This document shows positions 6,821 through 8,841 of a stretch of 41,615 nucleotides of DNA, one piece after another. The notes beneath the pieces were generated by a model that was not told the origin of the DNA, made no database searches, and worked only from the letters and a program-made list of their open reading frames with translations. Source of the stretch: Flavobacteriales bacterium (GTDB taxonomy: Bacteria; Bacteroidota; Bacteroidia; Flavobacteriales_D; Parvicellaceae); contig JADHMB010000009.1 of NCBI GenBank assembly GCA_016780365.1, positions 1 through 41,615 on the forward strand. The letters are read 5' to 3'. A program made the translations under genes and the position numbers. The first letter of the stretch is position 1. Each line of letters opens with the position of its first letter.

Positions 6821-7108
6821 ATGACAAAAGCAGACTTAATTTCAGAAATAACAGATAAGACAGGTGTTGAGAAAATAGCTGTGCAGGCAACAGTAGAATC
6901 ACTTATGACTTCCATTATTGATGCAATGGAAAGTGGTGAAAATGTTTATTTACGTGGATTTGGAAGTTTTGTGATTAAAAAAAGAGCAGAAAAAACTGGT
7001 AGAGATATTTCTAAAAACACAACAATCATCATACCAGAGCATTTTGTTCCTACCTTTAAGCCAGCTAAAACTTTTGTAGAAGGAGTTAAAAATAAGATTA
7101 AGAAATAA
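6821..7108 (+). CDS. HU/IHF-family DNA-binding protein
   Basis: Small histone-like nucleoid protein of 95 residues that bends DNA as a dimer. It shows the family start MTKADLISEI, the core GENVYLRGFGSFVIKKRAEKTGRD, and a beta-arm region carrying the IIIPEHFVPTFKPAK segment (the usual arm Pro lies in IIPEH). Length is normal. It is followed by the tiny ribosomal peptide gene after 32 bases and then RNase G, an arrangement I recall as common in Bacteroidota. It has its own strong promoter. HU cannot be separated from IHF by sequence alone here. Confidence 0.93.
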   Translation: MTKADLISEITDKTGVEKIAVQATVESLMTSIIDAMESGENVYLRGFGSFVIKKRAEKTGRDISKNTTIIIPEHFVPTFKPAKTFVEGVKNKIKK

Positions 7109-7140: not shown

Positions 7141-7230
7141 ATGCCTAGCGGTAAAAAAAGAAAAAGACATAAGATTTCTACACATAAGAGGAAAAAGCGT
7201 CTGAGAAAAAACAGACATAAGAACAAATAG
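7141..7230 (+). CDS. 29-residue basic ribosomal peptide (AURKAIP1/COX24, mS38/bS22-like)
   Basis: ATG to TAG encodes MPSGKKRKRHKISTHKRKKR plus nine more residues (LRKNRHKNK). Sixteen of 29 residues are Lys or Arg and three are His. It closely matches the short Bacteroidota proteins annotated as AURKAIP1/COX24-domain, the family of mitochondrial mS38 and actinobacterial bS22, which bind the small ribosomal subunit near the decoding region. The ribosomal role is inferred from that family. It lies 32 bases after HU and 66 bases before RNase G, the last linking it to RNA metabolism. It is easily missed by gene callers because of its size. Confidence 0.88.
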   Translation: MPSGKKRKRHKISTHKRKKRLRKNRHKNK

Positions 7231-7263
7231 TCTTTTTCCACTGACAATATTATTTTTATTGTG

Positions 7264-7295
7264 TAACCGCTCTGCTATAATCAGATAGGAGGTTA
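7264..7295 (+). promoter_or_regulatory. Possible SD-sequestering fold in the RNase G leader
   Basis: TAACC (7264-7268) can pair with GGTTA (7291-7295), which includes the last two G of the Shine-Dalgarno. Inside it TCTG (7271-7274) can pair with CAGA (7282-7285). The stems are short, so this is a suggestion from pairing only. Confidence 0.25.
7287..7292 (+). promoter_or_regulatory. Perfect Shine-Dalgarno AGGAGG of RNase G
   Basis: AGGAGG lies four bases before the GTG start at 7297 and fixes that start. It stands out because the other genes in this window have AT-rich upstream regions with at most weak purine runs, as expected for Bacteroidota. Confidence 0.75.
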
Positions 7296-7296
7296 A

Positions 7297-8841
7297 GTGT
7301 CGTATGAATTAGTTATAAATTCATCATCAGACGAAGTAGTAACTGCATTACTTTATGACAACAAATTAGTTGAAATTCATAAAGAAGGTCTTGATGATCG
7401 ATTTAATGTAGGAGATGTTTATCTAGGTAAGGTTAAAAAAATCGTACCAAGTTTAAATGCCGCATTTGTAGATGTTGGATACGAAAAAGATGCATTCTTG
7501 CATTATTTAGATTTAGGTCCACAATATAGATCAATGAGTAAATTTACCAAAGATTCTATATCTGGAAAACAGTCTACCCATAAGCTTGGTTACAATAAGA
7601 TAGAGCCAGATATTTTAAAAGATGGAAAGATAAAAGAACACCTCTCTTCTAACCAAATAATCGCTGTTCAGGTAACTAAAGAACCAATATCCTCTAAAGG
7701 CCCAAGGCTTAGTGCTGAAGTAACTATTCCTGGAAGGTTTTTGGTTTTAGTTCCATTTTCAGAAAAGATTTCAGTTTCTCAAAAAATAAAAGATCCAGCC
7801 GAGAGAAATCGTTTAAAGAGACTTATAAATAGTATCAGACCAAGAAAGTTTGGTGTGATTATTAGAACTGTAGCACAGAATAAAAAAGTTGCCGAATTGG
7901 ACCAAGACCTTAGAGACTTAGAACAAAAATGGTCTAAAATGTTCAAAGAACTTAAAGATGCAACTCCAAGAAAAAAGCTACTTGGAGAAATGAATCGGGC
8001 TACTACAGTATTAAGAGACGAGTTAAATAAAGAGTTTACAAGTATTCACGTAGATGATGAATCTTTATATAATGAGCTAAAGGATTATGTTAAGACTATT
8101 GCCCCTGAAAAGGAAGATATTGTTAAGCTCTATCAAGGGAAAGTAAGCCTATTCGAAAGCAAGGGAATTAATAAGCAAATAAAAGCAACTTTTGGCAGGA
8201 AAGTTAACTTAAAATCCGGAGCCTATCTAATTATTGACCATACTGAGGCAATGCATGTTGTGGATGTTAATAGTGGAAACCGAAAGGCCACCAATGTCAA
8301 TCAGGAATTAAATGCTTTAGAAACCAACTTAGAATCAGCTGAAGAAATTGCTAGACTTTTAAGGTTAAGAGATATGGGAGGTATTGTAGCTGTCGATTTT
8401 ATCGATATGTACGATAGAGCTAATAATAAAAAGCTTATTGAAAGTTTTAGAAAGTTTATGAAGGACGATAAAGCTAAGCACAATATTCAGCCACCAAGTA
8501 GATTTGGAGTTGTAGAATTGACTAGGCAGCGTGTTCGTCCAGAAACTGAAATTAAAACTACTGAAACTTGCCCAACTTGTCTTGGGAAAGGAGAAGTGCA
8601 AGCTTCAATTCTAATTATAGATGAGATTGACTCAATGCTCAACTCAATTATGGTTGAGGGGATAGCAAAATCTATTACTTTAAATGTTCATCCCTTTATT
8701 GACGCTTTTTTGAAAAAAGGAGTTAAAAATATCCAAAGACAATGGTTTTTAAAGTACAAAAAATGGATTGCTGTTAGACCAATGACAGAGCTTGGTATTC
8801 TACAATATCAGTTTTTAGACGAGTCCGATAATTCTATTTAA
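7297..8841 (+). CDS. rng: Ribonuclease G/E family endoribonuclease
   Basis: RNase E/G-type endonuclease of 514 residues, a full-length RNase G core without the long RNase E tail. The order is an N-terminal S1-type RNA-binding domain (GDVYLGKVKKIVPSLNAAFVDVGYEKDAFLHY, about 40-75, with an insertion before the next strand), the 5'-sensor/catalytic region with the DNase I-like acidic residues (MHVVDVNSG and IVAVDFIDM), and the Zn-link CPTCLGKGE near 430. It acts in mRNA turnover and rRNA maturation. The start is GTG, set by AGGAGG four bases upstream. It follows HU and the ribosomal peptide on the same strand. Its stop is two bases from the thiL stop on the other strand. Confidence 0.95.
   Translation: MSYELVINSSSDEVVTALLYDNKLVEIHKEGLDDRFNVGDVYLGKVKKIVPSLNAAFVDVGYEKDAFLHYLDLGPQYRSMSKFTKDSISGKQSTHKLGYNKIEPDILKDGKIKEHLSSNQIIAVQVTKEPISSKGPRLSAEVTIPGRFLVLVPFSEKISVSQKIKDPAERNRLKRLINSIRPRKFGVIIRTVAQNKKVAELDQDLRDLEQKWSKMFKELKDATPRKKLLGEMNRATTVLRDELNKEFTSIHVDDESLYNELKDYVKTIAPEKEDIVKLYQGKVSLFESKGINKQIKATFGRKVNLKSGAYLIIDHTEAMHVVDVNSGNRKATNVNQELNALETNLESAEEIARLLRLRDMGGIVAVDFIDMYDRANNKKLIESFRKFMKDDKAKHNIQPPSRFGVVELTRQRVRPETEIKTTETCPTCLGKGEVQASILIIDEIDSMLNSIMVEGIAKSITLNVHPFIDAFLKKGVKNIQRQWFLKYKKWIAVRPMTELGILQYQFLDESDNSI

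Follow-up and report, generated by a model that had tools for sequence, protein, structure and literature searches.

The rng gene of this Flavobacteriales genome, encoding a ribonuclease of the Rne/Rng family, is preceded by an extended Shine-Dalgarno (SD) sequence that ranks first in strength among the credible start sites scanned, is conserved in four related genera of uncultured flavobacteria and has a single origin, while rpsU, the gene for bS21, has no SD. With some reservation, we favor the view that this is a genuine SD, gained once, and that rng is preferentially translated by 30S subunits whose anti-SD (ASD) is free, i.e., bS21-poor or immature ones, which would close a loop of 16S rRNA maturation.

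The rng leader and its pairing with the 16S rRNA tail

The following features were revealed in the window (the whole stretch of DNA analyzed, 41,615 nt; g1, g3, g4 and g5 are the four genera with the site):

6821-7108, plus strand: upstream gene for an HU/IHF-family DNA-binding protein (PF00216, 90.6 bits)
7141-7230, plus strand: gene for a 29-aa, very basic peptide (MPSGKKRKRHK...); 79 of 80 named relatives have a peptide of this pattern at their rng locus
7231-7296, plus strand: 66-nt leader from the basic peptide gene to rng
7267-7275, plus strand: CCGCTCTGC, a partly conserved leader element 5' of the SD (CGCTYTGC in most g1, g5 and g4 genomes)
7280-7293, plus strand: invariant block ATCAGATAGGAGGT, 14/14 in all g1 and g3 genomes
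7283-7293, plus strand: extended SD AGA-U-AGGAGGU, pairing with the 16S tail ACACCUCCUUUCU with one U.U mismatch (-14.2 kcal/mol)
7287-7292, plus strand: SD core AGGAGG, identical in 18/18 rng leaders of g1, g3, g4 and g5
7297-8841, plus strand: rng, Rne/Rng-family ribonuclease of 514 aa with a GTG start (TIGR00757 and PF10150)

The rng product reaches 422.0 bits against TIGR00757 (cut-off 325.95) and 314.4 bits against PF10150 (cut-off 25.5), and is thus assigned to the Rne/Rng family. Its score against the ribonuclease G equivalog NF008689, 323.6 bits, lies below the 594-bit cut-off; therefore we name the gene only to the family level, and a role of the Bacteroidota enzyme in 16S maturation is assumed by analogy with Escherichia coli. 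Since no in-frame start codon is open 5' of the GTG and GTG is the homologous start in all 30 family members read, position 7297 was taken as the correct start. The 29-aa basic peptide, which we take to be a small-subunit, bS22/mS38-like peptide, gave no match in Pfam or NCBIfam.

It should be mentioned that in Fluviicola-like relatives (L035, L036, L040, L041, L044, L046, L052) the interval that separates the basic peptide gene from rng contains a terminator-like hairpin (AACTTAGTAGG...ACTAAGTT) followed by a T-rich stretch, which suggests attenuation or separate transcription of rng. In one congener genome (G010, contig C95, L122) a second Rne/Rng gene, 50% identical, was found; it is possibly due to contamination of the bin.

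The letters at 7287-7299 confirm the proposal, made from the sequence alone, that AGGAGG stands four bases before the GTG: the core is followed by TTAA and then by the start codon at 7297-7299. The core does lie at 7287, but the extended site begins at 7283. Its pairing comprises AGGAGGU (7 bp) and AGA (3 bp) across one U.U mismatch; the AGA arm contributes about 2.8 kcal/mol, and without it the energy is -11.4 kcal/mol. All energies were calculated with ViennaRNA duplexfold against the 13-nt tail used by convention in PMC9976891 (16S positions 1532-1544), while the -13 kcal/mol scale of its authors was obtained with free_scan.

The same reading had suggested that a weak fold of 7264-7268 with 7291-7295 may mask the SD. 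Such a hairpin is not supported, as the leader folds no better than shuffled sequences (z = -0.25), the helix is missing from the consensus fold of nine congeners, with no compensated pair, and the letters that follow GGT are free to vary.

Rank, conservation and origin of the site

In total, 1303 start candidates from 1140 ORFs were ranked by pairing energy in 1.415 Mb, or 72% of this genome, and rng was the first of them at -14.2 kcal/mol, followed by candidates at -12.0, -11.4 and -11.3. It was first again, at -14.4, among 746 ORFs from 0.8 Mb (about 36%) of the congener genome G007. The ranking that had been proposed as a check thus came out as predicted for the sampled 72%, whereas the accompanying claim that matches at all other genes are weak at best was overstated, since prfA (38708) reaches -11.3. 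When the scan was widened to open-ended and short ORFs, no credible gene stronger than rng was revealed. On inspection, the higher scores in such liberal scans turned out to come from glycine-rich coding sequence (GGAGGT), from internal starts or from short ORFs judged spurious. As for the runners-up, prfA has a long spacer and shares sequence with the end of the gene upstream, the rplE match (-11.4) lies inside the rplX C-terminal coding region and changes at synonymous places, and the site of the 775-aa ORF with a TTG start (-12.0, L206) is located in what is apparently the coding end of the upstream gene, and its pattern is absent from 10/10 congeners. None of them was accepted as a strong-SD gene.

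An SD-like match of about -9 to -15 kcal/mol precedes rplE across most of the family (L136, minus strand, 11370; L291-L320). It appears to be built from the rplX C-terminal Gly-Glu-Glu codons, and some rplE SDs reported in Bacteroidia may be coding-derived in the same manner.

SD windows contain fewer matches at <= -6 kcal/mol than mock windows (55 vs 111), and AGGAGG-N2-10-RTG is under-represented genome-wide (126 occurrences vs 180 of the reversed pattern). Elsewhere in the genome SDs are thus depleted, as in genomes where rpsU has the strong SD, and rng is indeed an outlier among genes that avoid them. Random 22-nt windows reach -14.2 kcal/mol in 37 of 60000 cases (about 0.06%), or roughly once per 1300 by chance; therefore the rank by itself is modest evidence, and the strong evidence is conservation.

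Thirty rng leaders could be read in the family set of 39 genomes. AGGAGG is located 4-7 nt before the GTG in 18 of 18 readable leaders of four genera (11/11 in g1, three in g3, three in g4 and one in g5), with a spacer of 4 nt in g1, 5 in g3 and 7 in g4 and g5, and is absent from the 12 leaders read in g2, g7, g8 and g9. An order-wide search of 399 genomes with a pattern joining the SD to the rng N-terminus returned the same 18 leaders and nothing else, with near-empty control counts; a class-wide search of 395 genomes returned this genome and one candidate match, G441. The pattern without the SD recovers 40/80 named rng starts and 25/30 of those in the family, hence the absence elsewhere holds at about half sensitivity. 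None of the 80 named relatives has AGGAGG before rng except L031 (Crocinitomicaceae MAG RS467), which from the block onward is identical letter for letter with G016 over 1500 bases. The conservation anticipated by the sequence-only reading is thus complete within four genera but is a trait of one family, not of Flavobacteriales.

In the rng protein tree the SD-bearing rows form one clade (support 100/99) with one change. As far as can be judged from the sequences, the rng SD appears to have been genuinely gained once, in the ancestor of the four related genera, and then preserved by selection acting on its pairing with the 3' tail of 16S. Fourfold sites of rng show 31-39% identity between this genome and g3, and the remaining leader about 50%, while ATCAGATAGGAGGT is identical at 14/14 positions in all 14 genomes of g1 and g3; the letters from GGT to GTG are variable (TAA, ACA, ACC, CAA, CCA). 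Such strong purifying selection on the site within the clade indicates that SD-ASD pairing at rng has a real function. The g5 leader CCAAAAAGGAGGU has different letters and forms nine contiguous pairs (AAAGGAGGU) at -13.6 kcal/mol; since similar pairing is reached here from another sequence, it is the pairing, not the letters, that seems to be selected. Pairing below -13 kcal/mol was thus found in g1 (-14.2 to -14.4), g3 (-14.2) and g5; in g4 it is limited to AGGAGG (6 bp, -10.2).

Could the conserved block be another cis element, for instance a site for an RNA-binding protein, an autogenous RNase site or part of a promoter, with the SD match being secondary? Conservation does extend to ATC at 7280-7282 and to the upstream CGCTYTGC, beyond the reach of 16S pairing. 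However, the start-proximal part common to the four genera is AGGAGG itself, at SD distance, the letters in g5 differ with the pairing kept, and no conserved fold was found. Moreover, the invariant 14-mer occurs once in the sampled 1.4 Mb, so that a regulon was rejected. We therefore regard this explanation as quite unlikely. The CGCTYTGC element (7267-7275) shows no complementarity to the 16S tail.

Alternatively, the SD might be a constitutive aid to initiation by ordinary ribosomes, with no sensing, that offsets a poor GTG and a leader lacking the usual upstream adenines. The start in the SD-bearing leaders is always GTG, the leaders are not A-rich beside it, and g4 retains just a simple 6-bp SD, all of which agrees with such a role. 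However, the start codon of rng is GTG or TTG in 69 of the 80 named Bacteroidota relatives, nearly all of them SD-less, so a weak start needs no SD; in addition, SDs are avoided elsewhere in the genome, and a strong SD is of no help in wild-type Flavobacterium johnsoniae (PMC9976891). We consider a constitutive aid rather unlikely. The conserved weak start codon may itself limit or regulate the enzyme.

rpsU and the 16S tail in the family

In F. johnsoniae, a relative, the ASD is hidden by bS21, bS18 and bS6, and SD use is gained without bS21; rpsU bears an extended SD, and ribosomes that lack bS21 regulate it (PMC9976891). Reporters with AGGAGGU rise on bS21 loss: with this sequence, output of the tuf reporter is somewhat lower in the wild type, while in bS21 mutants or the uninduced depletion strain it is 1.7- to over 2-fold higher (PMC9976891). 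In that work, rpsU was as a rule the sole strong-SD gene of a Flavobacteriales genome (PMC9976891).

A parallel between rng and a bS21 gene with its own SD had been drawn from the sequence alone. This parallel fails in the genome studied, where the rpsU start (...CGCCTATAAAAATTAAAC-ATG) has no SD, and none was found in any family rpsU start read (L125, L146-L174), in contrast to most Flavobacteriales reported in PMC9976891. In other families sampled, some rpsU genes do have an SD (-17.0 kcal/mol in G043 and -14.0 in G072). The target of the strong SD is thus rng and not rpsU itself, which shifts the interpretation from rng joining rpsU to rng acting instead of rpsU. Judging by the sequences, rng looks like a replacement that holds the position of rpsU elsewhere.

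The bS21 residue Y54, which belongs to the pocket in F. johnsoniae (PMC9976891), is present in this genome, and an aligned Y is found in relatives; a search of the sampled stretches for rpsR found none. Only one 16S gene was found in this genome; it ends in ...GGCTGGAACACCTCCTTTCTAGAG and has a canonical ASD, ACACCUCCUUUCU, the sequence revealed in G000, G007, G017 and G021.

Comparison of the 16S tails (L277-L286, L124) revealed that (i) the SD-bearing genera read (g1, g3 and g4) have CCUCCUUUCU with UUUCU; (ii) the SD-less g2, g7 and g8 have CCUCCUUUUU, with UUUUU for UUUCU; and (iii) one g8 genome, G029, has CCUCUUUUUU, in which the core is changed. With the altered tails, pairing of the g1 site would be weaker, -11.6 or -8.9 kcal/mol instead of -14.2. 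This single phylogenetic contrast of 11 sequences suggests that constraint on the tail may have been relaxed where no gene uses it. A broader proposal, which we put forward tentatively, is that in one Flavobacteriales family the signal of ASD exposure has passed from bS21 to a 16S-processing RNase: rpsU has no SD, rng carries the sole extended SD of the genome and alone keeps the 16S tail intact, and the tail has decayed in sister genera that lack the rng SD.

Ribosome state and rng expression

It can be supposed that normal ribosomes of this lineage hide the 16S tail in the bS21/bS18/bS6 pocket, so that most initiation would ignore SDs. The 30S subunits with a free tail, either late assembly intermediates or those that have lost bS21, would pair with the rng leader and initiate more readily at its weak GTG. 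More of them would mean more Rne/Rng ribonuclease, and hence more finished 30S. Sequestration of the ASD in this lineage, the preference of bS21-poor ribosomes for rng and the 16S-maturation loop are all inferred by us; sensing of exposed-ASD ribosomes by rng would fit the work on F. johnsoniae (PMC9976891).

Preferential translation of rng by ribosomes with an exposed ASD is favored by its top rank in two genomes, SD depletion, the 18/18 conservation, the pairing in g5, the canonical tail and Y54. Points against it are the internal mismatch, which makes the pairing weaker than is typical of rpsU, the weak g4 pairing, the g1 spacer of merely 4 nt, and the conserved ATC and CGCTYTGC.

Another possibility is that the SD serves as a 30S-docking or standby site protecting the rng mRNA, and controls its stability (e.g., against autocleavage) rather than the initiation rate. 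Enzymes of the RNase E/G group are often autoregulated, which counts for this explanation. In F. johnsoniae, the complexes of ribosomes with rpsU mRNA are unusually stable (PMC9976891), which also speaks for it. We hold a role of the rng SD in mRNA stability to be very unlikely.

Among known systems, the one closest to preferential translation of rng by ASD-exposed ribosomes is the rpsU autoregulation of F. johnsoniae and other Bacteroidota (McNutt et al., 2023, PMC9976891), which shares the SD-avoiding genome, the canonical ASD, bS21 Y54 and a single gene with an extended SD and predicted pairing below -13 kcal/mol. It differs in that rpsU typically has 9-13 contiguous bp, while rng has 7+3 bp with one internal mismatch; the rng SD is confined to four genera; and the rng product is an RNase, so that bS21 would not be a direct target of the loop. 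Strong SDs on single genes in SD-poor genomes are also known in other Bacteroidia orders for rpsR and some other ribosomal protein genes (PMC9976891, PMC8710568), to which class rng does not belong.

The third counterpart, RNase G (rng/cafA) of E. coli, is a member of the same Rne/Rng family and trims the 5' end of 16S rRNA. Its role in 16S processing and the control of its level by RNase III acting on rng mRNA are described in PMC3985665. Unlike it, the enzyme studied here falls below the equivalog cut-off, and the E. coli level is reportedly not set by ASD exposure.

No report of RNase G with SDs in Bacteroidetes/Bacteroidota was found in the literature searched, and PMC9976891 mentions neither rng nor any ribonuclease. 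In that literature, rng is the first gene other than those for ribosomal proteins to carry the single extended SD in a genome of Bacteroidota. These data suggest a link between the production of rng and ribosomes that are unfinished or damaged. If this is true, "specialized" ASD-exposed ribosomes can be wired to an enzyme of ribosome maturation. The family also offers a natural test of what conserves the ASD in bacteria that hardly use SDs, as a single gene is left on the list of its users, and sister genera with and without the rng SD can be compared in their 16S tails.
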